Assembly (NCBI GenBank): GCA_016192455.1
Contig: JACPUC010000008.1
Span: 248,001-312,000 of the forward strand
DNA from: Candidatus Tectimicrobiota bacterium
GTDB taxonomy: Bacteria; JACPUC01
Direction of reading: 5' to 3'
Length of the DNA: 64,000 nt
The notes under the pieces are model-generated. The model worked only from the letters and a program-made list of their open reading frames with translations, was not told the origin of the DNA and did no database searches. Below are positions 16,456-45,172 of the stretch, in pieces. Numbering within the stretch: position 1 is the stretch's first letter; each line of letters begins with the position of its first letter. The position numbers and the translations under genes are program-made.

Positions 16456-17411
16456 TGCAGTCCTCACATGAACAGCTCGCGCCGCTGCCCGCGGCGTGGC
16501 ATGCCCGGCTGGCGCGCTTCCGCTGCGACAACCGCTCGGGAGCGGCGCACCTCGCCGCCGAAGCTGTCTCCCTCGTGGCGCAGTGGGGCGCCGCCGTTCC
16601 CTCCTCCGCCCCGGCGCCGCAGCGCAGGATGGCGCTCATCGACCTCTGTCGAACCTTGCAGGCGGCGCAGCCGTCCATGGCGCCGGTCCTCACCGCGCTC
16701 AATGAAGCGCTGCAGCGCTGCGAGCTCGCCCCGGACGCCGCCGCCTGGCGGGCCGCCCTGGCGGCGTGGGGCAGGGAGTGGCCCGAGGCGGCGGCCCGCC
16801 GCGCCGCCGCCACCCTCGCCCACGCCCGCCAAGCCCTGATTCGCACCGCGCCCGCCGGCATCCGCGTGCTCACCCACTCCCGCAGCTCGCTGGTGGAGCG
16901 GCTGCTCCGCGAGGCGGGGGCAGGGATGATCCGTGAAGTCCTCTGCTGCGAGTCGCGGCCGCTCTGCGAGGGACGGGACCTCGCGGCGGCCCTTGCCGGC
17001 GCCGGGCTGCGGGCGCGCCTGCTGATCGACGCCGCGGCGGCAACGGTCGTCGCAGGCGTCGAGGTGGTGCTCCTCGGCGCGGACGCGGTGCTGCCGGGCA
17101 GCCTGGTGCACAAGATCGGCAGCCGCGGCCTCGCCCTCGCCGCCCGGCAGGCGGGCGTCCCTGCTTACGCGCTCTGCCCCTCGGACCGCTGGCTGCCGTC
17201 GGAGGCGGTCCCCCTGCTGGCCTTCGTCGAGCATCCTGCGGACGAGGTGTGGGCGGCCGCGCCGGCGGGGGTGGCGGTCGAGAACCGCTACTTCGACCAC
17301 ACCCCGCTCTTCTGGTTGCGCGGGCTGGTCACCGAGCAGGGCGTACTCGAGGCGCGCGGCGCTCCCCCCCTCCACACCATGCGCCTGCACCCCGGCTGGC
17401 GCCTCTCCTGA
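16449..17411 (+). CDS. eIF-2B alpha/beta/delta-like (ribose-1,5-bisphosphate or S-methyl-5-thioribose-1-phosphate isomerase fold) protein
   Basis: 320 residues. The C-terminal Rossmann-like half carries the family pattern: VLTHSRSSLVERLL, VLCCESRPLCEG, VVAGVEVVLLGADAVLPGSLVHKIGSRGLALAARQAGVPAYAL. In this family the Cys/Asp pair (ESRP...GADA) serves sugar-phosphate isomerisation; several bacterial members are regulatory or uncharacterised. The N-terminal half is helical. No strong Shine-Dalgarno precedes ATG 16449, and the gene overlaps the divergent CinA-like start. A nearby sugar-isomerase-fold gene suggests sugar phosphate metabolism, but this is only context. Confidence 0.7.
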   Translation: MALQSSHEQLAPLPAAWHARLARFRCDNRSGAAHLAAEAVSLVAQWGAAVPSSAPAPQRRMALIDLCRTLQAAQPSMAPVLTALNEALQRCELAPDAAAWRAALAAWGREWPEAAARRAAATLAHARQALIRTAPAGIRVLTHSRSSLVERLLREAGAGMIREVLCCESRPLCEGRDLAAALAGAGLRARLLIDAAAATVVAGVEVVLLGADAVLPGSLVHKIGSRGLALAARQAGVPAYALCPSDRWLPSEAVPLLAFVEHPADEVWAAAPAGVAVENRYFDHTPLFWLRGLVTEQGVLEARGAPPLHTMRLHPGWRLS

Positions 17412-28163: not shown

Positions 28164-28531
28164 GGGGGCGAACTGGGTTCGACGGGGGTAATTGAGCGTT
28201 TTGCTGCATGCCGAGGTCGTCACCAACCTCGTAAATCAGGTGGCACACCAAGCAAGTGCGGAAACCGAAGCACTTCCTCTGGCTGCGTAACAACTCGGCC
28301 AGCGTTCTCCCTGCCCGCGCCTCTGGGGTGGGATGAGGGCGTCATAAACAGAGACTAGCGCCGCAGGTTCCGCCTGGCTGCCTGTCGCGCGAACCAACGC
28401 CGGACTAGGGACCGGTTGTATCCCCCGCCCGTGGGAGTGACCGGCCCGAAATATCCAATAACGAGGCTACGCATGTAGACGCACGGCGTGAAGACCTTCG
28501 GACGCGGGTTCGATTCCCGCCGCCTCCACCA
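28164..28531 (+). ncRNA. ssrA: Transfer-messenger RNA (tmRNA)
   Basis: One-piece tmRNA of 368 bases with CCA encoded. The 5' acceptor strand GGGGGCG pairs with the 3' strand CGCCTCC before ACCA, and AACTGGGTTCGACGG follows the 5' strand. GCATGCCGAGG...CCTCGTAAA forms pseudoknot 1, with CACC/GGTG as its second stem. The 3' end has a perfect T-arm (CGCGGGTTCGATTCCCGC). The tag frame ends in codons for ETEALPLAA and TAA. The resume codon is either GCG (tag AETEALPLAA) or the GCA two codons earlier (ASAETEALPLAA); sequence alone does not decide. No terminator follows directly. One is found after a second, truncated copy 6.7 kb downstream. Confidence 0.95.
28342..28531. repeat. Left direct repeat: 3' half of ssrA
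   Basis: The last 190 bases of ssrA recur in the same orientation at 35063-35252 with eight substitutions and no gaps by my alignment. The final 48 bases, including the whole T-arm and acceptor, differ at one position only. Confidence 0.9.
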
Positions 28532-28925: not shown

Positions 28926-29038
28926 CTCCCTGAAACACCAAGTGCCGCGGCCGTTTGTCTCTGACAGACGGTGATGGGGTTGTCCGCGCGCGTGAAGCCT
29001 TGCTTCATTGCCGCGCGCTCCTCGAAGGGAGTTGGTCT

Positions 29039-30322
29039 ATGCATTTTCCCGAATCTGCCACCCGGCCAGGGCGGTCTGTTGCGTACCGCGTGGCCGTGAC
29101 GGTCCTGCTGGCAAGCCTGAGCGGCGTGGCTAACGCCGATGCCCTTTCATTTCAGGAGGCGCTGGCTTTGGCTTTGCGCGAGACGCCGGTCCTGAGGGCG
29201 AACACCGCCCAGGTCGATGCCGCCACCCAAGCGGCGATTCCCGCGGGAGCACTGCCGGACCCCAAACTCGCGCTGGGTGTCGACAACCTGCCGATTGACG
29301 GCCCCGACCGCTACAGCCTGAGCCGTGATTTCATGACCATGCGGCGCATCGGCGTGATGCAGGAGTTTCCCAACCGGGCCAAGCGCAAGGCGCGTGTGGC
29401 GGCCGCGCAGGGCCGGGTGGCCGTGGCCGAGGCGCAGACCCGCGTCACGCGGTTGACCGTACTGCGGGAGGTAGCGGTCGCCTGGATCGCGCGCGGCAGC
29501 ATCGAGCGCCAGCTTACGCGCAGCGATGCCCTCCTGGCCGAAAACCGCCTGTTCGAAGCGGCCGTGCGCGCGCAGCTCGCGGCTGGCAAAGCTGCAGCGA
29601 GCGAGGTGGTCGCGCCACGGCAGGAAGCCGCGCTGATCGAAGAGCGCCAAGACGTCCTGCGCGCGCAGCGCGAGCAAGCCCTTGCACAGTTACGGCGCTG
29701 GATCGGACCAGCGGCGCAGGCGCCGCTGACAGGCGTGGTTCCTGACTGGCCTATCGAACGCGATGGGCTGCTGCGCCGCCTGCGCCAACACCCGGAACTG
29801 GCCGCGTTCGACCCCAAGGCCCGTGTTCTCGAGGCGGAACGGGCCGAGGCACAGGCGGCCAAGAAACCGGACTGGGCGCTGGAATTGGCCTACCAGCAGC
29901 GCGGCCCGCAGTTTGGCGACATGGTGTCACTGCAAGTCAGCTTCGACTTGCCGCTGTTCGCCGGCTCGCGCCAGAACCCGCAGATCGCGGCCAAACTGGC
30001 CGAGCGGACCGCGCTTGTGGCCGAGCGCGAGGCCATGCTGCACGAACACGCGGCCGCGCTTGAAGCGGATTTCGCCGAGTACCAGCGCCTTGTGAATGCC
30101 GTCCAGCGCCAACGTGAGGTGCTGCTGCCGCTGGCCGAGGAGAGGGTGACGCTCGCGCTGGCCGGCTGGCGCGGGGGCAAAGGCAGCCTGACCGAACTGA
30201 TCGCCGCCCGCCGCGAACGCATCGACGCTGAACTCAAAGCCATCGCACTGGAGGGCGAACGTCAGCAGATGGCCGCCCGCCTGCACTACGCCTATGGCGA
30301 CATCGCCGGAGAACAAGGATGA
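29039..30322 (+). CDS. Outer membrane efflux protein, TolC/CusC family
   Basis: 427 residues. A signal peptide (VTVLLASLSGVANADA) precedes two TolC-type repeats of long helices: LSFQEALALALRETPVLRANTAQVDAA near the start, and SDALLAENRLFEAAVRAQLAAGKAAASEV and later equivalents. It forms the outer-membrane channel of the tripartite exporter encoded downstream. ATG 29039 follows GGGAG. The stop overlaps the next start as ATGA. Confidence 0.85.
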   Translation: MHFPESATRPGRSVAYRVAVTVLLASLSGVANADALSFQEALALALRETPVLRANTAQVDAATQAAIPAGALPDPKLALGVDNLPIDGPDRYSLSRDFMTMRRIGVMQEFPNRAKRKARVAAAQGRVAVAEAQTRVTRLTVLREVAVAWIARGSIERQLTRSDALLAENRLFEAAVRAQLAAGKAAASEVVAPRQEAALIEERQDVLRAQREQALAQLRRWIGPAAQAPLTGVVPDWPIERDGLLRRLRQHPELAAFDPKARVLEAERAEAQAAKKPDWALELAYQQRGPQFGDMVSLQVSFDLPLFAGSRQNPQIAAKLAERTALVAEREAMLHEHAAALEADFAEYQRLVNAVQRQREVLLPLAEERVTLALAGWRGGKGSLTELIAARRERIDAELKAIALEGERQQMAARLHYAYGDIAGEQG

Positions 30323-31806
30323 AACATCCCAAGAAAATCTTGCTGATACCCGTCGTCGCTTCCGCGCTGCTGGCGCTCGGCGCAACGGGCGGAGGGTGGT
30401 GGGCGAGGCACGACGCCAGGTCCGCCAGCACGGCAGCGCACGCGCCGCAGGCCGCCGCGCAGACTGAGCGCAAGGTGCTGTACTGGTACGACCCGATGGC
30501 CCCGCAGCAGCGCTTCGATCAACCCGGCAAGTCGCCGTTCATGGGCATGGAACTGGTGCCCAAGTATGCCGATGAGACCGACAAGGGCAGTGGGGTCAAG
30601 ATCGATCCCGCAGCGATCCAGAACCTCGGTGTGCGACTGGCCAAAGTCGAGCGCATGCCGCTGGCGACTCAGGTCGGGGCTACCGGTCTCATCGCTTTCA
30701 ACGAGCGCGACGTGGCGGTGGTGCAGAGCCGGGTTGGCGGCTTCGTCGAGCGAGCCTGGCCGCTGGCCCCGGGCGATGTCGTGAAGGCTGGCCAGCCCCT
30801 GGTGGAATTGCTGGTGCCGGAGTGGGCCGCGGTCCAGCACGAGTGGCTGGCGCTGCGATCCGTCGGTGACGCGGCGCTGCAGGCCGCCGCAAGCGAGCGG
30901 CTGCGCCTTTCGGGTATGCCGGAGGCCCTCATTCGCGAAGTCGAGCAAAGCGGCACAGCGCGTTCGCGCTATACGGTGACCGCGCCCATCGGCGGCGTGG
31001 TGCAGGCCCTCGAGGTGCGCGCAGGCATGACCGTGATGGCGGGACAGACGCTGGCGCGCCTGAATGGACTGTCCACGGTATGGCTGGACGTCGCGGTGCC
31101 CGAGGCGCTGGCCGATGCGGTGCGCGTGGGCAGCCGAGCCCAAGCGCGACTGCCCGCTTTCCCCGGACAACTCATCGAAGGTCGAGTGACCGCGATCTTG
31201 CCAGCGCTGCAAGAAACCACACGCAGTCTGCGGGTGCGGGTGGAGCTGCCGAACCCGAACGGCCGTCTGCGTCCCGGCCTGTCCGCCCAGGTGACGCTCA
31301 CCTCGCCGTTGCAGGACACCGCGCTCGCCGTACCGACCGAGGCGGTGATTCGCACCGGCCAACGCGCCCTCGTGATGGTGGCGCAGGACAACGGGCGATT
31401 CATGCCGGTGGAGGTCACGCTGGGCCGCGAGATCGGTGACCGCACCGTGATCGCCGCGGGACTCGCCGAGCGGCAGCACGTGATCGCCAGCGGGCAGTTC
31501 CTGATCGACTCGGAGGCGAGCCTGCGCGGCATCGTTCTTGGCGCGGCGAGTGAGCCGGCGGCCATGGCCTCCACCGCATTGCACGAGGCCGACGCCACGA
31601 TCGAAGCGATCGAGGGCAACAAGATCACGCTCGCGCATGGGCCGTTCAAGACGCTCGCCATGCCAGGCATGACGATGGCGTACCCGCTGGCCAATCCTGC
31701 CTTGGTCCAGGGCCTGAAAGTCGGCGACAGGGTGCGCATCGGTGTGCGCCAGACGGATGCGGGCCTCGTGGTCGAGCGTCTCGAACAAACACGAGGTGGT
31801 AGATGA
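30319..31806 (+). CDS. cusB: RND periplasmic adaptor, CusB-like, with N-terminal metal-binding and C-terminal CusF-like domains
   Basis: 495 residues. An N-terminal membrane anchor or signal is followed by a heavy-metal-binding segment at 54-83 ([12 protein letters not shown]...[10 protein letters not shown]), the barrel-sandwich hybrid ([13 protein letters not shown]...[13 protein letters not shown]), an alpha hairpin and the beta-barrel. Residues 423-495 form a CusF-like metallochaperone domain with TLAMPGMTM, where the Trp of CusF is replaced by Met. CusF is a separate protein in E. coli, so here it is fused to the adaptor. Four-base overlaps (ATGA) with the genes on both sides show tight translational coupling. 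Substrate: most likely Cu(I)/Ag(I). Confidence 0.88.
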
Positions 31807-34800
31807 TCGCCCAACTCATCCACTGGTCGGTCGCCAACCGCTTTCTGGTGCTGCTGACGACCTTGTTCCTCACGGTCTGGGGCATCTGGTCGGTCACGAC
31901 CATACCCATCGACGCGCTGCCCGATTTGTCCGACGTGCAGGTGATCATCCGCACGAGTTACCCGGGCCAGGCGCCGCAGATCGTCGAGAACCAGGTGACC
32001 TACCCTTTGGCCACCACCATGCTGTCGGTGTCCGGCGCCAAAACGGTACGCGGCTTCTCCTTTTTTGGCGACAGCTTCGTCTACGTGCTGTTCGAGGACG
32101 GCACGGACCTGTACTGGGCGCGCTCCAGGGTGTTGGAATATCTCAACCAGGTGCAGGGGCGATTGCCGGCCACCGCCAAGCCCGCCCTGGGGCCGGATGC
32201 CACGGGTGTGGGCTGGATCTACCAGTACGCGCTGATCGACAAGACCGGCCGGCACGATCTCTCGCAACTACGCGCGCTGCAGGACTGGTTCTTGAAGTTC
32301 GAGCTGAAGACCCTGCTCAACGTCGCCGAAGTCGCCACCGTCGGCGGCATGGTTAAGCAATACCAGATCGTGCTCGACCCGGTGAAGCTCGTGAGCCTCG
32401 GCATCACGCACGAGCAAGTGATCGACGCCTTGCGCCGCGCCAACCAGGAAACCGGTGGGTCCGTGCTCACCCTGGGCGAAACGGAACTGATGGTGCGCGC
32501 CAGCGGCTACCTGAAGTCGATCGACGATTTCCGCGCGATTCCGCTCAAGCTCGAAGGCGGCGTGCCGGTGACGCTTGGCGATGTCGCCCACATCCAGCGC
32601 GGCCCCGAGATGCGGCGCGGTATCGCCGAACTCGACGGCGAAGGCGAGGTGGTGGGCGGCGTGGTCGTCCTGCGCTCGGGCAAGAACGCGCGCGAGACGC
32701 TGGCCGCCGTGCACGCCAAGCTCGAATCCCTCAAAGCCAGCCTGCCCAAGGGTGTGGAGATCGTCACCACCTACGACCGAGGCGCGCTCATCGACCGGGC
32801 CATCGACAACCTCTCGTACAAGCTGATCGAGGAGTTCATCGTCGTCGCGCTCGTCTGCGCGCTGTTCCTGTGGCATCTGCGTTCGTCGCTGGTGGCCATC
32901 GTGTCCCTGCCGCTCGGGGTGTTGATCGCCTTCATCGTCATGCGCCATCAGGGCATCAACGCCAACATCATGTCGCTGAGCGGCATCGCGATTGCTGTGG
33001 GCGCCATGGTCGATGCGGCCGTGGTGATGATCGAGAACGCCCACAAAAAGGTGGAGGTCTGGCAGCACGCGAATCCGGGCGAGACACTCAAGGGCGACGC
33101 GCACTGGCAAGTGATGACAGAGGCAGCGGTCGAGGTGGGTCCGGCGCTGTTTTTTTCGCTGCTCATCATCACCCTGTCTTTCATCCCCGTGTTCACCCTG
33201 GAAGCGCAGGAGGGGCGCTTGTTCGGGCCGCTCGCCTTCACCAAAACCTATGCCATGGCGGCCGCGGCGGCCCTCTCGGTGACGCTCATCCCGATCATGA
33301 TGGGCTACTGGATACGCGGCAAGCTGCCGGATGAGTCGCGCAATCCGCTCAACCGCTGGCTGGTGCGTGCTTATCACCCGCTGCTGGATGCGGTGCTGGC
33401 ACGCCCCAAGCTCACGCTCGTGCTGGCCGTGCTGCTCACCCTCACCGCGGCCTGGCCGATCAGCCGCCTCGGCGGCGAATTCCTGCCGCCGCTCGACGAA
33501 GGTGATCTGCTCTATATGCCAAGCGCGCTACCGAACTTGTCAGCCCAGAAGGCCGGCGAGATATTGCAGCAGACTGACCGCATGATCAAGACCGTCCCCG
33601 AAGTGGCGCGCGTGTTCGGCAAAGCAGGCCGCGCCGAGACCGCCACGGATCCGGCGCAGTTGGAGATGTTCGAGACCACGATCCAGTTCAAACCGCGTGA
33701 TCAATGGCGGGCGGGCATGACGGCCGCGAAGCTCGTGGAGCAACTGGACCGGGCCGTCCAGGTGCCGGGGCTGACCAACATCTGGATTCCGCCCATCCGC
33801 AACCGCATCGACATGCTCGCCACCGGCATCAAGAGCCCCATCGGCGTCAAGATTGCCGGGACCAATCTGGCCGATATCGACCGCGTCGCGCAGCAGGTGG
33901 AACGCATCGCCAAAACCGTGCCCGGCGTCTCATCGGCGCTGGCCGAGCGCCTCACCGGCGGGCGCTACGTCGATGTCGAGATCGACCGCGCGGCTGCCGC
34001 CCGCTACGGGCTCAACATCAGCGAAGTGCAGTCCGTGGTGGCGAGCCTCATCGGCGGTGAAAACGTCGGCGAGACCGTGGAGGGCCTGGCGCGCCATCCG
34101 ATCAATGTCCGCTATCCACGCGAGTGGCGCGACACGGTGGAGCGTCTTGCGCAACTGCCCATCGTCACGCCCATGGGCAGCCAGCTCACGCTGGGCACGG
34201 TGGCACGCGTCAAGGTCACCGACGGCCCACCCTTCCTCAAGAGCGAAAACGCGCGCCCCAGCGGCTGGGTGTACGTCGATGTGCGCGGCCGCGATCTGGC
34301 CTCCACGGTGGCCGATCTGCGTGCGGCGGTCACGCGCGAGGTCAGGCTCGAACCTGGCATAAGCCTGGCCTATTCCGGTCAGTTCGAGTTCATGGAACGC
34401 GCCAACGCGCGGCTCAAACTCGTGGTGCCGGCCACCTTGCTGATCATCTTCGTGTTGCTGTATCTCACCTTCGCCCACTTTGACGAAGCCTTGCTGATCC
34501 TCGCCACGTTGCCCTTCGCGCTCACCGGCGGCGTGTGGTTCCTGTACCTGATGGGCTTCAACCTGTCGGTTGCCACTGGGGTGGGCTTCATCGCGCTGGC
34601 CGGGGTGGCGGCAGAGTTTGGGGTGGTCATGCTGATCTATCTCAAGCACGCCTGGTACGACCGGATCGATGCCGGCCAAGCGACCGAGTCCGGCCTGCTC
34701 GATGCGATCCGCGAAGGTGCCGTGCTGCGTGTGCGGCCCAAGGCGATGACGGTGGCCGTCATCGTTGCCGGCCTCTTGCCCATTCTGTGGGGGAGCGGCA

Positions 34801-34955
34801 CAGGCAGCGAGGTGATGAGCCGCATTGCCGCTCCCATGGTGGGCGGCATGGTCAGCGCGCCGCTCTTGTCCTTGTTCGTTATTCCCGCAGCGTACCGGCT
34901 GATGCGCCGCCGGCAACTTCCCTCAGCCACTCATCCGCAAACGAAAAGAGACTAA
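31803..34955 (+). CDS. cusA: Heavy-metal RND efflux pump, CusA-like
   Basis: 1050-residue inner-membrane proton-driven pump with 12 helices. Family marks include [20 protein letters not shown] at the N-terminus, [10 protein letters not shown], the membrane segment [23 protein letters not shown] with the proton-relay Asp and Glu, and [19 protein letters not shown], where the Met is a Cu/Ag ligand in CusA. It exports monovalent Cu/Ag through the CusB- and CusC-like partners. Its start overlaps the adaptor stop (ATGA). Base composition is somewhat less extreme than that of neighbouring chromosomal genes. Confidence 0.92.
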
Positions 34956-34997: not shown

Positions 34998-35252
34998 ATA
35001 AAGTTCCTCCCGCCCGCGTCTCCCTGCCGCACCAGAGGCAGGGGTGGCGGCGGAGGAGGACCTCATAAACAGAGACCAGCGCCGCAGGTTCCGCCTGGCT
35101 GCCTGCCGCGCGAACCAACGCCGGACTAGGGACCGGTTGTATCCCCCGCCCGTGGGAGTCACCGGCACGAAGCACCCAATAACGAGGCTACGCATGTAGA
35201 CGCACGGCGTGTAGACCTTCGGACGCGGGTTCGATTCCCGCCGCCTCCACCA
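34995..35252 (+). pseudogene. ssrA: 5'-truncated second copy of ssrA
   Basis: The last 190 bases match the intact tmRNA gene with eight substitutions. The 60-70 bases before that correspond to the central pseudoknot region but are diverged, with their own pairing segments (CCTCC...GGAGG and CTGCC...GGCAG). The 5' tRNA-like half, pseudoknot 1 and tag codons are absent. The T-arm and CCA are perfect, so it decayed little. It is followed by a strong terminator. Confidence 0.8.
35063..35252. repeat. Right direct repeat: 3' half of ssrA
   Basis: Partner of 28342-28531. Differences cluster in a short stretch near 35160-35177 and elsewhere are single substitutions. Confidence 0.9.
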
Positions 35253-35261
35253 ATTCGCCGC

Positions 35262-35389: not shown

Positions 35390-35435
35390 GTTCCATAATG
35401 TAGGTAATTATTGACAACTACCTACATTTTGGAAC
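35390..35435 (+). promoter_or_regulatory. Large inverted repeat, probable AbiEi operator
   Basis: Arms of 17 bases, GTTCCATAATGTAGGTA (35390-35406) and TACCTACATTTTGGAAC (35419-35435), are complementary except at one position and separated by 12 bases. AbiEi antitoxins repress their own promoter by binding inverted repeats, and this one ends 11 bases before the ATG. A TTGACA hexamer lies in the spacer/right arm (35411-35416). Confidence 0.7.
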
Positions 35436-35446
35436 ACCATGCCTGC

Positions 35447-36046
35447 ATGGAATCTTCTCACCAAGCTCTCCTCGACCTGGCCAAGCACCATGGTCTGATA
35501 CGCCCGCGCGACCTGGCGCCCCTGGGGATTTCACGGGTTGCCCTGACACGGCTTGTGCGCCGCGGGATGCTCGAGCGGGTCGGCCGTGGCCTCTATGCGC
35601 TTCCAGACCGGTCCGTCTCCGAGCATGCTGCTCTGGCCGAGGTCGCCCGCAAGTACCCGCAGGGAGTGATCTGCCTGCTGTCGGCACTGCGATTCCACAA
35701 CCTCACCACCCAGTCCCCCTTCGAAGTCTGGCTGGCAATTCCGAACAAGGCCCGCGCGCCCCGGCTCGAGTACCCACCGCTGCGGATCGTGCGATTCTCC
35801 AGCCAGGCTCTTATCGAAGGCATGGAGGAGCACGTGGTCGACGGTGTTCCGGTCCACGTGACCACCGTTGCCAAGACGGTGGCCGACTGCTTCAAGTACC
35901 GGAACAAGATCGGCCTGGACGTAGCTCTCGAAGCGCTACGGGAGGCGTGGAGAGAGAAGCGCGTCAGCATGGACGAGCTATGGCGCTATGCCCGGGTCTG
36001 CCGGGTCAGCAATGTGATGCGGCCTTATCTCGAAAGCCTGACGTGA
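35447..36046 (+). CDS. abiEi: Type IV toxin-antitoxin system antitoxin, AbiEi family
   Basis: 199 residues. An N-terminal winged-helix DNA-binding domain (ALLDLAKHHGLIRPRDLAPLGISR...LVRRGMLERVGRGLY) is followed by the AbiEi C-terminal domain (GVICLLSALRFHNLTTQ, VHVTTVAKTVADCFKYRNKIG). It represses its own operon and neutralises the nucleotidyltransferase toxin in characterised systems. The reading frame is intact. Start chosen at ATG 35447; an in-frame TTG at 35411 would lie inside the operator. The stop overlaps the toxin's GTG start (GTGA). GC content is visibly lower than in flanking chromosomal genes, consistent with transfer. Confidence 0.88.
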   Translation: MESSHQALLDLAKHHGLIRPRDLAPLGISRVALTRLVRRGMLERVGRGLYALPDRSVSEHAALAEVARKYPQGVICLLSALRFHNLTTQSPFEVWLAIPNKARAPRLEYPPLRIVRFSSQALIEGMEEHVVDGVPVHVTTVAKTVADCFKYRNKIGLDVALEALREAWREKRVSMDELWRYARVCRVSNVMRPYLESLT

Positions 36047-36944
36047 ACAAGCGGAACATGGCGGCCTCGGTGCGCGCCCGGTTGCTCGACAAGGCCCGTG
36101 CCGAAAAACTGGACTTCAACCTCCTCCTCACCCGTTACGCACTGGAACGCCTCCTCTATCGGTTGAGCACCTCGCTTTACGCCGATCAGTTCCTGCTCAA
36201 GGGCGCACTGCTGTTCGACCTATGGTTCGGCATTTCACACCGACCAACCCGCGATGCCGATCTGCTGGGGCTCGGTTCGGCAGAAGTACGGCACATCGAC
36301 ACCGTGTTCCGAGGACTATGTGCGGTTGCGGTTGACGACGGAATTGTCTTCCAACCGGAATCGGTACGTGTCGAGGAAATCCGCAAGGAGGCCACATATC
36401 CCGGTGTGCGCGTGACTCTCGTGGGCCTGATCGAGAAGGCGCGCTGCCGGTGCAGGTTGACATTGGTTTCGGCGATGCTGTCACGCCGGGTCCAGAAGCC
36501 ATTGAGTACCCGGTAGTGCTTGCCGATCTGCCGGCGCCGAGGCTGCGCGCGTACCCGCGATATTCGGTGATCGCCGAGAAACTTGAAGCAATTGTGTCGC
36601 TCGGCATTGCCAACAGCCGCATGAAGGACTACTTCGACCTGCGGATCCTGGGCAGGTACAGCGATTTCGACGGCGGCATCCTCTGCCAGGCGATCCGCGC
36701 TACCTTCGATCGGCGGAACACGCCGCTACCGGAGGGTGTGCCGCTCGGCCTGTCTGACGAGTTCGCGCAGGATCGGCGGAAGCAGGTGCAATGGCAGGCA
36801 TTCTTGAAGAAGAACGTGTTGACCGCCACCACGCTGGCCGAGGTCGTGGCATCGCTGAGGGCGTTCCTGATGCCGCCGCTCGATGCGCTTCATCAAGAAG
36901 CGGAGTTCCCACGACGGTGGCGAGCCGGTGGCGTGTGGGAATAG
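36043..36944 (+). pseudogene. abiEii: AbiEii nucleotidyltransferase toxin, disrupted by a frameshift
   Basis: The first frame (from GTG 36043) encodes NMAASVRARLLDKARAE and the nucleotidyltransferase core LLKGALLFDLWFG...RPTRDADLLG. The protein then continues in another frame from about 36445, with VQVDIGFGDAVTP, YSVIAEKLEAIVSLG and RMKDYFDLR, the expected rest of the family. The break is at the codons after IEKAR: restoring one C after 36444 would give IEKARLPVQVDIGFG. Both halves are otherwise well kept, so the single-base loss is recent or a sequencing error. As it stands the toxin is inactive. Confidence 0.85.
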
Positions 36945-40867: not shown

Positions 40868-40917
40868 TGGCCCGGTGAGCTGCCCCGCCTCCCCAGCCTT
40901 TGGAAAGGTTCCGGAGC

Positions 40918-42156
40918 ATGCCGCACTTTCGAGATCCTCTTCCCACCTCTGGACGGACGAGGGAGGTTTCCCCGTCAGCGACCCAGGGGAACGGCTCAGC
41001 CACGGCCGGAGCCGCGGAGGCCGCCGCGCCTGCCCCAGCGGCCGTGCCGCGGTTGACCACCCCTATCGTGGGGCCGCGGGAGCAGTTCGACCAGCGTCAG
41101 CAGAACCATACCCGCATCTCCCTCGGCGAGCTGGGGGAGAAGGCCGCTGCCGCCTGGAACAGCGAGTCGGTCGATCCCTTCCGGCGCATCTTCTACCCGC
41201 TCAACCGGCCGCAAAATGTCGCCATGCGCTCCTGGCTGAAAGTGGCGGATGGGCCGCTCAACCCGCAGCGGGTCGAGGTGCGCAACCCGGCGAAGATGTC
41301 CGAGATTATCAAGGGAGTGGGGAAGTTCCTCGGCGCCAGCGAGGTGGGCATCTGCGAGCTCGACCCGGCGTACGTCTACAGCCACCGCGGCCTGCGCATC
41401 GACTTCTACAAGGGGCGCGCCGGCACGCCGATCACCCTCACGCACCGCTACGCTATCTCCATCCTCATCGAGATGGACTACCCGAATTTCCGCAACTCGC
41501 CGGGGTTCATCGATGACGCCGCGGTGGGGAAGGGCTACCTGGAGACGGCGAAGGTGGCCGTCTCCCTGGCCGGGTATATCCGCGAGCTCGGCTACCCCGC
41601 CAAGGCGCACTTCCACCTCGAGGAGGAGGTGCTGCACATCCCCATCGCCGTCATGGCGGGGTTGGGCGAGCTGGCCCGCAACGGCTCCATGATCACCCGC
41701 AAGTACGGCCCGCGCCACCGCCTTGCCACGGTGACGACCGACCTCCCCCTGGCCGTCGACCAGCCGGTGGACCTCGGCGTGCAGAAGCTCTGCCGCATGT
41801 GCACGAAGTGCGCCGTGAGCTGCCCGGTGCAGGCGATCCCGAAGGAGAACGAGCTGCCCGTCATTCGCGGCGTGCAGAAGTGGTACCTCGACAACGACGC
41901 CTGCGCCACCTACTGGACCGCCAACTGGAAGCGCTGGAACTCCTGCGCCCGCTGCATCGCCGTCTGCCCCTGGAACCGCCCGTGGAACCGGCGGCAGCGC
42001 CTCGCCACCTGGCTGGTGCCGCGCTCGAAGCTGGCGCGCCGCCTCCTCTTGAAGCTCGACGACCTGCTGCGCGGCAAACGACCCAACCCGCAGGTCGAGT
42101 GGCTCTACTATAAGCAGAAAGGCGTGAAGGACGCCGGACTCTACGTGGTGGAGTGA
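40918..42156 (+). CDS. Reductive-dehalogenase-like 4Fe-4S protein, cytoplasmic
   Basis: 412 residues. Two ferredoxin-type clusters are near the C-terminus: Cys292, 295, 298, 302 in CRMCTKCAVSCP, and Cys343, 346, 350 in CARCIAVCPWN with a further Cys329. KWYLDNDACATYW between them is typical of the RdhA family. The N-terminal part should form the nitroreductase-like cobalamin-binding domain. There is no Tat signal, no membrane-anchor partner gene and no fused reductase domain, so it is a soluble RdhA-like or QueG-like enzyme. ATG 40918 follows CGGAG. It lies between a CoA ligase and an MBL-fold gene, so it may act on a CoA-linked or hydrophobic substrate; that is inference. Confidence 0.75.
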   Translation: MPHFRDPLPTSGRTREVSPSATQGNGSATAGAAEAAAPAPAAVPRLTTPIVGPREQFDQRQQNHTRISLGELGEKAAAAWNSESVDPFRRIFYPLNRPQNVAMRSWLKVADGPLNPQRVEVRNPAKMSEIIKGVGKFLGASEVGICELDPAYVYSHRGLRIDFYKGRAGTPITLTHRYAISILIEMDYPNFRNSPGFIDDAAVGKGYLETAKVAVSLAGYIRELGYPAKAHFHLEEEVLHIPIAVMAGLGELARNGSMITRKYGPRHRLATVTTDLPLAVDQPVDLGVQKLCRMCTKCAVSCPVQAIPKENELPVIRGVQKWYLDNDACATYWTANWKRWNSCARCIAVCPWNRPWNRRQRLATWLVPRSKLARRLLLKLDDLLRGKRPNPQVEWLYYKQKGVKDAGLYVVE

Positions 42157-42239
42157 CGGCGGCGTCGTGCTGCCGCTGCTTCACCCCGTCCCTCGCTCAA
42201 ATCCCGCCACCATGCACCACTGCGTTTAGGGACGACCCG

Positions 42240-43787
42240 ATGTCGAAGATGACCCCACCCGCCGCCACCCGCCCCTTCCCAGGCCGCATGCCAGCCGGCA
42301 TGCCGAACCCCTTCGGCAAGTTGCGGTACGGCTCCTTCCAGCAGCTCACCCCTTCCTGCTACATCTTCCGCAACATCGTCAACTCCGGGGTGGTGATCAC
42401 GGCGGACGGCGTGGCCGTGGTGGACACGCAGATCAACGAGCCGATGGCGCGGCGGCTGCTGGCGGCGATCCGCGGCGTGACGGACGCGCCCATCCGCTAC
42501 GCCGTCAACACCCACTACCACTGGGACCACTGGGCCGGCAACAACGTCCTGCGCGAGGCCGGCGCCACCCTCATCTGCGGCGCCTTGACACGGCACTTCA
42601 TGGAGGTGCGCAACCGGCGTCAGCGCGCCTTCCTGCAATCGCGCGGCTTCTCGCTGCCGCCTGATGATCCGGCAAAACCAGACGTCACGTTCGAGGGCGA
42701 GCTGACCCTGCGGCTCGGCACCGTGCCGCTCCACCTCCTGTTCCTGGGACGCGCCGAGACGGATGATGCCACGGCCGTCTGGGTGCCCACGGAGCGCTGC
42801 GCAATGAGCGGCGATACGCTCATGACCGGCAGCTTCCCCATCCTCGGCCAGCCGGTGATGAACGAGGGTCTCTCCGACAACCGAGACTGGATCAAAACCC
42901 TCCAGCGCCTCAAGTCCCTTGACCCGGAGCGCATCATCCCCGGTCATGGCAACCCGGGCGGGAATGCGGAGATCGACTTCTTCATCGAGCTGCAGGCATA
43001 CTTCCTCGACGCCGTGGCGGCGCTCCTCGATGAGGGGCTGCCGCCGCACACCATCATCGAGCGCGTCGAGGCGGAGCTGCCCGAGCGCTACGCCAGTCTC
43101 GCCGAGGTATGGGGAACACCGCGCTACGCCATCCTGCGCGTGCTCCACAGCATGACCGGCTGGCAGCAGGTGAAACCCTCCGCCCTGCCAGCGGCGCGGC
43201 CCGACGAGGTGGCAGCCGCCCTCGCCGCGCTCGAACCCGATGCGTCCCGCTACATCGAAGCTGCTCAGGAGGCGGAACCGGGGAACCCCGGCCTCGCCCT
43301 GGCGATCATGGACGCGGCGGTGCGCGAGTTTCCCAACGATCCCCTGCTCTGGGTGCGGCGCGGCCAGCTCTACCTGCAGGGCTCGCGCAACGCGCGCTCC
43401 GTGCTGGAGCGGGGGGACTACTTCATCGAGGTGCGCCGCTCCGCGGAACGCGCCCTGGCGTGTGATCCGGAGTGCGCGCCCGGGCTCGTGCTCCTGGGGT
43501 CGTACCTGGCGATGGGGGCGTACCGAAACGGCGATGATCCCGCCGAAGCAATGACCTACCTCAGCAAGGCTCTGCGCACGAGCCTCTCGCAGCGCGACGA
43601 GGCGAAGGTACACTGCTACCTGGGTCTCTGCTGTCGCGCCCGAGAGGATGAGGCATCGGCGCGCGCTTCGTTCGAGAAGGCGCTGGAGCTTGACCCCTCG
43701 TACATGCCGGCTCGGCTGGCGATGCTGGGGGGGCAGGAGGAGGCGTCGAACGAAGCCGGCGCTCGCCAGGAAGACAGCACTCAGTAA
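42240..43787 (+). CDS. MBL-fold metallohydrolase with C-terminal TPR region
   Basis: 515 residues. The beta-lactamase-fold metal motif HYHWDH is at 92-97, SGDTLM supplies the bridging Asp, and IIPGHGNPGG the distal His. The C-terminal half has TPR-like helices (RALACDPECAPGLVLLGSYL and ARASFEKALELDPSYMPARL). The layout recalls alkylsulfatase-like or quinoprotein-relay MBL proteins, but no family-specific catalytic signature beyond the metal site is seen. ATG 42240 is preferred to an upstream GTG at 42153. It lies 83 bases after the RdhA-like gene and is probably in the same operon. Confidence 0.75.
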   Translation: MSKMTPPAATRPFPGRMPAGMPNPFGKLRYGSFQQLTPSCYIFRNIVNSGVVITADGVAVVDTQINEPMARRLLAAIRGVTDAPIRYAVNTHYHWDHWAGNNVLREAGATLICGALTRHFMEVRNRRQRAFLQSRGFSLPPDDPAKPDVTFEGELTLRLGTVPLHLLFLGRAETDDATAVWVPTERCAMSGDTLMTGSFPILGQPVMNEGLSDNRDWIKTLQRLKSLDPERIIPGHGNPGGNAEIDFFIELQAYFLDAVAALLDEGLPPHTIIERVEAELPERYASLAEVWGTPRYAILRVLHSMTGWQQVKPSALPAARPDEVAAALAALEPDASRYIEAAQEAEPGNPGLALAIMDAAVREFPNDPLLWVRRGQLYLQGSRNARSVLERGDYFIEVRRSAERALACDPECAPGLVLLGSYLAMGAYRNGDDPAEAMTYLSKALRTSLSQRDEAKVHCYLGLCCRAREDEASARASFEKALELDPSYMPARLAMLGGQEEASNEAGARQEDSTQ

Positions 43788-43859
43788 GGGAACGGCGGGT
43801 TGACGAGCGTGAGAAGAACGGGGAGGGAGGGTCCCTGCGACAGAGAACCTTGCTGCCGC

Positions 43860-43916
43860 AAAAAAATTAAGGGACCGAGAACAACTTCGGGGGGGCAGGA
43901 GGTGCCCTCGGTCCCT
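43860..43916 (-). terminator. Rho-independent terminator of the candidate small RNA
   Basis: Perfect 10-bp stem AGGGACCGAG/CTCGGTCCCT followed on the minus strand by TTAATTTTTTT. It would also end leftward transcription towards the MBL-fold gene. Confidence 0.75.
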
Positions 43917-44139
43917 TCGCCTACTCCGCAACTACCCGGCGTCGTAGTCGGCTGTGTCGGCTGAGGCTCTGCCGGGTAATTGCAGAGCAAGCTGTCCGCA
44001 ACAAGGAACTATGTCATAAGTCCTGCGAGAGCCACCGGAATCGAGGTCGGCTGCATCGGCATCGGCTGGTGACTCTCGCTTGGGCTTCTGAACGGTCCAG
44101 GGAATTGGAGGAGGAGGTCTATCCCAACTGTTCCGTTCG
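43860..44139 (-). ncRNA. Candidate structured small RNA with C-rich anti-Shine-Dalgarno loops
   Basis: About 280 bases on the minus strand. In order from its 5' end: hairpin 1 (GAACGG/CCGTTC arms, 44133-44138 and 44090-44095) with CCTCCTCCTCC in its loop; hairpin 2 (12-bp arms with one mismatch, 44068-44079 and 44025-44036); hairpin 3 (TACCCGGC/GCCGGGTA, 43971-43978 and 43933-43940); and hairpin 4 (10-bp perfect arms AGGGACCGAG/CTCGGTCCCT, 43907-43916 and 43870-43879), with ACCTCCT in its loop and a T-rich run to 43860, a Rho-independent terminator. Loops 2 and 3 share repeated AGCCGA. A minus promoter (TTGCAT 44169-44174, 17 bases, CATATT 44146-44151) would start transcription near 44139. 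No protein frame is evident. Confidence 0.5.
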
Positions 44140-44141
44140 GG

Positions 44142-44174
44142 TTGTAATATGGACTGGACCGCGGTATAATGCAA
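44142..44174 (+). promoter_or_regulatory. Overlapping antiparallel promoters for the LysR gene and the small RNA
   Basis: Plus strand: TTGTAA (44142-44147), 17-base spacer, TATAAT (44165-44170), predicted start near 44177 for the LysR gene. Minus strand: TTGCAT (44169-44174), 17-base spacer, CATATT (44146-44151) for the candidate small RNA. The elements share the same 33 bases, so the two polymerases would exclude each other. Confidence 0.5.
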
Positions 44175-44248
44175 TCGAAAATATTTAATTTTATCTATTA
44201 GAATGGCTGATTGAAGGGCTGGTGACGGCCCAGCACGGGAGTCGGGCC

Positions 44249-45172
44249 ATGGACCTGTTGAACTTCAAGATCTTCTGCGATGTCGTGGAGACCAGGAGTT
44301 TCACCAAGGCGGCGGCGCGGAACTACCTCTCCCAGTCAGCGGTGAGCCAGCAGGTGCGCTCGATTGAGGAGGAGCTCAATGAGACGCTGATCAACCGCGG
44401 GCGCGGCACGCTCGAGCTCACCGAGGCCGGGGAGATTTTCCTGGTGGGAAGCCGCAGCATCCTGCAGAGTTTCGAGGAGATCAAGGCGCGGCTCGCGGCG
44501 ACGAAACGCGAGGTCAGCGGCGCCATCCGCATCTCCAGCACCTACAGCATCGGCCTCTATGAGCTGCCCCCCTACCTGCAGCGGTTCATCCAGCTCTACC
44601 CCAACGTGCAGATGAGCGTGGACTATCGCCACACCCCCGATATTTACGAGGACGTGATCAGCAAGCGCGTTGACCTGGGGTTTGTCGCCTACCCATCACC
44701 TCGGCCGCAGCTCACCATCCACCCCTTCCGGGAGGACCGTCTGACGCTGGTGTGCCATCCTGACCACCCCTTCAGCAAGCTGAGCAGCATTGATCCTCGG
44801 CAGCTCCACGAGCAACCGTTCGTCGCCTTCAGCCGCGTCACCCCGACGAGCAAGGCGATCCGCCGCATCCTCAAGCGGGCTCACGCGCAGGTCCGCATCG
44901 TCATGGAGTTCGATAACATCGAGCTCATCAAGCGCGCCGTGGAGATCAACGGCGGCGTGTCGATTGTGCCCTGGCACACCATCCTGCCGCAGGTGCAGAA
45001 TGGCGTGCTCGCCGCGGTGCCGCTGCGCAACGCCAACGATCTGCGTCCCCTCGGTGTGCTGCTGCGCAAGGAACGCATCCTCCCCACGGCGGTGCTGCGA
45101 TTCCTTGATCTGCTCGAAGAGCCGCTCGACATCGCGAACCACATGAAGGCGAGCAAGTCCGCGGGCCGCTAG
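44249..45172 (+). CDS. LysR-family transcriptional regulator
   Basis: 307 residues. The N-terminal helix-turn-helix (FKIFCDVVETRSFTKAAARNYLSQSAVSQQVRSIEEEL) is typical of LysR. The C-terminal effector-binding domain includes GAIRISSTYSIGLYELPPYLQRFIQLYPNVQ and GGVSIVPWHTI. ATG 44249 (MDLLNF) fits the family start; an upstream GTG at 44222 has no support. A consensus-like promoter lies about 80 bases upstream. It may control the thioesterase behind it or the CoA-ligase cluster, and it shares its promoter region with the divergent small RNA. Confidence 0.88.
   Translation: MDLLNFKIFCDVVETRSFTKAAARNYLSQSAVSQQVRSIEEELNETLINRGRGTLELTEAGEIFLVGSRSILQSFEEIKARLAATKREVSGAIRISSTYSIGLYELPPYLQRFIQLYPNVQMSVDYRHTPDIYEDVISKRVDLGFVAYPSPRPQLTIHPFREDRLTLVCHPDHPFSKLSSIDPRQLHEQPFVAFSRVTPTSKAIRRILKRAHAQVRIVMEFDNIELIKRAVEINGGVSIVPWHTILPQVQNGVLAAVPLRNANDLRPLGVLLRKERILPTAVLRFLDLLEEPLDIANHMKASKSAGR

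Follow-up and report, generated by a model that had tools for sequence, protein, structure and literature searches.

A candidate orphan small RNA with two classes of repeated loop motif, divergent from a lysR gene in Candidatus Tectimicrobiota

Analysis of a 64,000-nucleotide stretch of the genome of a Candidatus Tectimicrobiota bacterium (hereafter the window) points to a small RNA (sRNA) gene on the minus strand at 43860-44181, within an intergenic region (43788-44248) flanked by two plus-strand genes. The first of these (42237-43787) encodes, by profile matches, a metallo-beta-lactamase-fold hydrolase with C-terminal TPR repeats and is convergent with the candidate. The second (44249-45172) lies divergent from it and encodes a LysR-type transcriptional regulator with HTH_1 and LysR_substrate domains (Pfam). 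The candidate gene would start at ~44181 or ~44159 and end at a U-tract at 43866-43860, and was called from its folding z-score, the orientation of its terminator and its gene context. The host genome measures 4.46 Mb at 88% completeness and has a G+C content of 68%. We consider the presence of some kind of RNA gene at this position quite probable; the orphan sRNA is likely to be real, and its mechanism is one that we infer.

The minus-strand RNA from 44166 to 43862 is predicted to fold with an energy of -123.9 kcal/mol, corresponding to a z-score of -6.1, and an independent set of shuffles gave -4.9. Four successive hairpins had been proposed in the initial annotation, and three of them are well supported. 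Hairpin 2 (44025-44079; z -3.4) has a stem of 12 bp, including one G-U pair, and a 31-nt loop, while hairpin 3 (43919-43992; z -6.7) is an uninterrupted helix of 22 bp, including four G-U pairs, with a 30-nt loop. Hairpin 4 (43869-43917; z -4.0), the terminator stem, comprises 15 bp with two G-U pairs and carries the motif ACCUCCU in a C-rich loop. Taken together, hairpins 2-4 reach a z-score of -6.2 against shuffles. Hairpin 1 (44092-44162), a weak 9-bp outer stem around CCUCCUCCUCC at 44117-44107, is doubtful and scores no better than chance (z -1.5).

We additionally surveyed uninterrupted helices with at most four G-U pairs and loops of up to 35 nt, using 400 kb of stretches from the same genome as background. 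The 22-bp helix of hairpin 3 was the longest on either strand of the resulting 464-kb sample, in which no other uninterrupted helix exceeded 17 bp and nowhere else, on either strand, did three helices of equal strength fall within 240 nt of each other. Total fold energy by itself fails to single out the region: when the energies of 305-nt segments, coding ones included, were ranked on G+C content alone, its z-score was only -1.7. Helix length and dinucleotide shuffling are fairer tests for an intergenic RNA than this ranking. Stem-loops in such an array might instead have been left behind by a mobile or repeat element, without any gene, and several palindromic structures are present at other sites of the genome, such as those around positions 16950 and 7500 of the stretches L124 and L125, respectively. 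However, neither DNA searches nor a covariance model found a second copy of the region in the host genome, the structured regions at other sites are G+C-rich repeats that do not look alike to it, and the wobble pairs of hairpins 2-4 single out one strand, which makes such an origin very unlikely.

Each of these wobbles, seven in all, is a G-U pair when read on the minus strand but A-C on the plus strand. At equal odds such a bias has a chance of 1 in 128, a figure that calls for caution because the minus strand was also the one used to delimit the helices. Because every wobble becomes A-C on the plus strand, the arms of hairpins 3 and 4 yield runs of just 9 and 11 bp there. The final terminator hairpin with a T-run that had been noted at first reading was borne out, since the 15-bp helix at 43917-43869 is followed on the minus strand by the U7 tract AAUUUUUUU (43866-43860). 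The terminator loop is long (19-27 nt), and hairpin 4 was not listed by an automatic terminator scan, which considered only loops of 3-8 nt. A general scan in this genome showed no enrichment of U-tract hairpins over shuffles, so a terminator-like hairpin alone is no proof of a transcript. As lysR is divergent and the hydrolase gene convergent, the sole transcript needing this terminator is one that begins between the terminator and lysR. With no other need for a terminator on the minus strand, a non-coding, free-standing RNA is the best reading.

The same layout allows a second explanation, in which the hairpins act only in cis, as terminators or roadblocks that keep spurious minus-strand transcripts arising near lysR from running into the convergent hydrolase gene, and no regulatory RNA is made. 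The convergence of terminator and hydrolase gene would suit this role, as would a U-tract that works in one direction only. On the other hand, the terminator is oriented opposite to the hydrolase gene and cannot end its mRNA, a single hairpin would suffice, and neither the wobble bias nor the loop motifs would be expected; we regard a function purely in cis as unlikely. Open frames in the region are short, TTG-started or located inside hairpins, and the region combines the features by which trans-acting sRNAs are recognized, namely a G+C-rich terminal hairpin with a U-tract in an intergenic position and no coding frame. One 17-codon ATG frame, MPMQPTSIPVALAGLMT, can be read directly on the minus strand in hairpin 2, and the transcript could in principle be the mRNA of such a very small protein, with or without a regulatory role in addition. 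This is highly improbable given that the frame lacks a good ribosome-binding site and starts inside a stable hairpin, and that the longer minus-strand frames all start with TTG and look non-coding.

Transcription of the free-standing RNA would begin in or beside a markedly A/T-rich zone (44171-44205; 80% A+T), which is matched in A/T-richness by 0.03% of the 35-mers of the window. The lysR gene is preceded by a plus-strand promoter, TTGTAA-17-TATAAT (44142-44170), that agrees with the consensus at 10 of 12 positions and, should the RNA start near 44159-44181, would overlap or adjoin its predicted 5' end. A -35/-10 pair had also been described on the minus strand. The best candidates there are TTCAAT-16-TAAAAT (8/12, start at ~44181) and ATAAAA-17-CATTAT (7/12, start at ~44159), and in 200 nt chance alone would be expected to produce about 0.1-0.5 matches scoring 7-8/12. 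Of the proposal that overlapping antiparallel promoters impose mutually exclusive transcription, the shared A/T-rich zone alone is certain, whereas the minus-strand promoter is no better than chance; mutual exclusion of the lysR and sRNA transcripts is possible. The zone at 44171-44205 is likely to be the place of both the minus-strand promoter and LysR binding. No clear or convincing LysR box (T-N11-A) was found in the promoter region.

The loops of the predicted RNA fall into two classes, C-rich and AGCCGA. The motif CCUCC occurs four times, compared to 0.77 expected, a count reached in 0.6% of shuffles. The run CCUCCUCCUCC in hairpin 1 is mostly unpaired (0.57-0.92), and the CCUCC in the terminator loop of hairpin 4 is about half unpaired (0.49). 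For the complementarity of loops 1 and 4 to Shine-Dalgarno sequences, as claimed initially, the enrichment of CCUCC speaks in favor, yet the principal copy belongs to the least well-supported of the hairpins. A putative anti-Shine-Dalgarno role is plausible. GGAGG is found upstream of 53 of 225 crudely called genes, about a quarter, so CCUCC alone brings little specificity, and target prediction by bare duplex energies was non-specific. The 16S rRNA gene is present in the host genome only as a fragment.

AGCCGA was likewise correctly recognized in loops 2 and 3, each of which holds two copies, and it is strongly over-represented (four copies compared to 0.18 expected; 0 of 2000 shuffles reach four). 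In addition, the two loops have GCCGAYRCAGCCGAC in common (p 0.002-0.006) even though their stems differ. Repeated loop motifs are arranged in this manner in CsrB-type RNAs, which have a sponge or decoy layout, and a real sRNA here might similarly use its AGCCGA loops, in hairpins 2 and 3, to bind a protein or a different RNA, with the C-rich runs being incidental. Against such a role, we are aware of no protein that recognizes AGCCGA, the loops are just 0.4-0.7 unpaired in the fold model, and with so high a genomic G+C content the likeness of the two loops could have arisen accidentally as a simple repeat. We consider a sponge or decoy rather unlikely, yet it merits equal experimental attention because its loops sit in strongly supported hairpins.

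The reading that we tentatively prefer, and to which we give somewhat less than an even chance, is a LysR-linked, Hfq-free sRNA that acts in trans by blocking ribosome binding. An RNA of ~300-320 nt would be transcribed from the A/T-rich zone beside the divergent lysR gene and end at the intrinsic terminator. The adjoining LysR protein probably controls it, as such control is usual for divergent LysR/target pairs. Its C-rich runs that are left unpaired, CCUCCUCCUCC towards the 5' end and ACCUCCU in the terminator loop, would then pair with target mRNAs at their G-rich Shine-Dalgarno regions, and this pairing may block ribosome binding with no need for Hfq, the targets and their repression both being predicted. 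A search for Hfq (PF17209) gave no match in the host genome, which at 88% completeness may lack the relevant contig.

Several LysR-associated sRNAs invite comparison. In oxyR/oxyS, the LysR-type gene and the sRNA gene are divergent, share one promoter region, and the LysR protein activates the sRNA. The gcvB gene is also divergent from gcvA and activated by it (PMC1557403). Both pairs match the candidate in layout, and the coordinates and Pfam matches place it in a divergent arrangement of the GcvA/GcvB type, as far as layout alone is concerned. The candidate matched neither GcvB nor OxyS in Rfam, and its LysR neighbor, whose closest relatives are 46-47% identical, scored far under every NCBIfam cut-off listed, including that of GcvA. 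VtlR activates abcR1, which is encoded beside vtlR (PMC7486931), and AbcR1/AbcR2 (alpha-r15) with VtlR/LsrB thus resemble the candidate in that the sRNA gene adjoins a LysR gene. However, AbcR1/AbcR2 lie downstream of vtlR, the candidate lies upstream of lysR and divergent from it, and no Rfam model match was obtained. NfeR1 (alpha-r14) of Sinorhizobium is activated by the LysR-type LsrB, is Hfq-independent and forms three hairpins with CCUCCUCCC loops, in which CCUCC-type anti-Shine-Dalgarno motifs stay unpaired and are kept while the stems differ (PMC10746234). The candidate is similar in having several hairpins and CCUCC-type motifs in unpaired regions. In contrast to NfeR1, with CCUCCUCCC in each of three hairpins, it spans ~300 nt with two C-rich and two AGCCGA loops, CCUCC being confined to hairpins 1 (weak) and 4, and its host, unlike that of NfeR1, is not an alphaproteobacterium. 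None of the alpha-r families in Rfam gave a match even at an E-value of 10. The candidate would therefore work like NfeR1 or AbcR at most by analogy, and without membership in either family. That LysR control and Hfq-free anti-Shine-Dalgarno pairing through multiple loops evolved here separately from the alpha-r families of alphaproteobacteria, and that the AGCCGA loops in addition bind a protein or further targets of their own, is a combination we think decidedly unlikely.

The overall fold had not been recognized at first reading, and Rfam indeed yielded no family at its threshold. The best weak score, 23.2 bits, came from BjrC68 (RF02353), an sRNA of Bradyrhizobiaceae, and involved hairpins 3 and 4. 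It falls well short of the gathering score of 39 and requires large insertions in both loops, and we rejected membership; the score most likely reflects a chance likeness of terminator hairpins. The host genome was the sole member of its phylum among the genomes searched, and DNA searches of 59 domain-level relatives returned merely short chance matches. A covariance model built from the candidate, which as a single-sequence model is weak for distant homologues, found no credible match in 386 other genomes. Two weak matches (21.7 and 21.1 bits; E ~0.01 per genome) are expected by chance over that number of genomes, and on inspection proved to be a G+C-rich palindrome and a match to a AGCCGATGCCG-type loop whose helix is broken. 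The covariance search that had been suggested was applied to the regions upstream of 80 related lysR genes and revealed no matching structure, most of these regions having a gene or frame close by. As no homologue was found, covariation lends the sRNA no support, and for now its prediction comes from a single genome. Should it prove genuine, very few other regulatory RNAs would be known from this deep and almost unsampled lineage, and it would point to more than one origin of LysR-controlled anti-Shine-Dalgarno RNAs and to their ability to work without Hfq.

Finally, we noted several features outside the candidate locus. Arrays of long G+C-rich palindromic repeats (e.g. GGGGCGGTTCGCGAACCGCCCC) at L124:16800-17300 and L125:7400-7900 apparently form a repeat family of the host genome. 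In the window, the plus-strand gene at 40900-42156 encodes a protein that scores barely over the NCBIfam reductive dehalogenase cut-off (171 compared to 160 bits) and well under that of QueG. The 3' part of the tmRNA gene (28164-28531, plus strand) is repeated at 35052-35253 on the same strand (202 bp, 94.6% identical), as is characteristic of integration of an element into tmRNA. The two copies enclose, by our reading, an outer-membrane-factor-like gene (28955-30322), an efflux adaptor (30319-31806) and a CusA/CzcA-like RND pump (31803-34955). Just past the repeat, at 35411-36944 on the plus strand, lie genes that read like an AbiEi/AbiEii-type pair, the second of which is possibly frame-shifted, with overlapping frames at 35947-36516 and 36450-36944.
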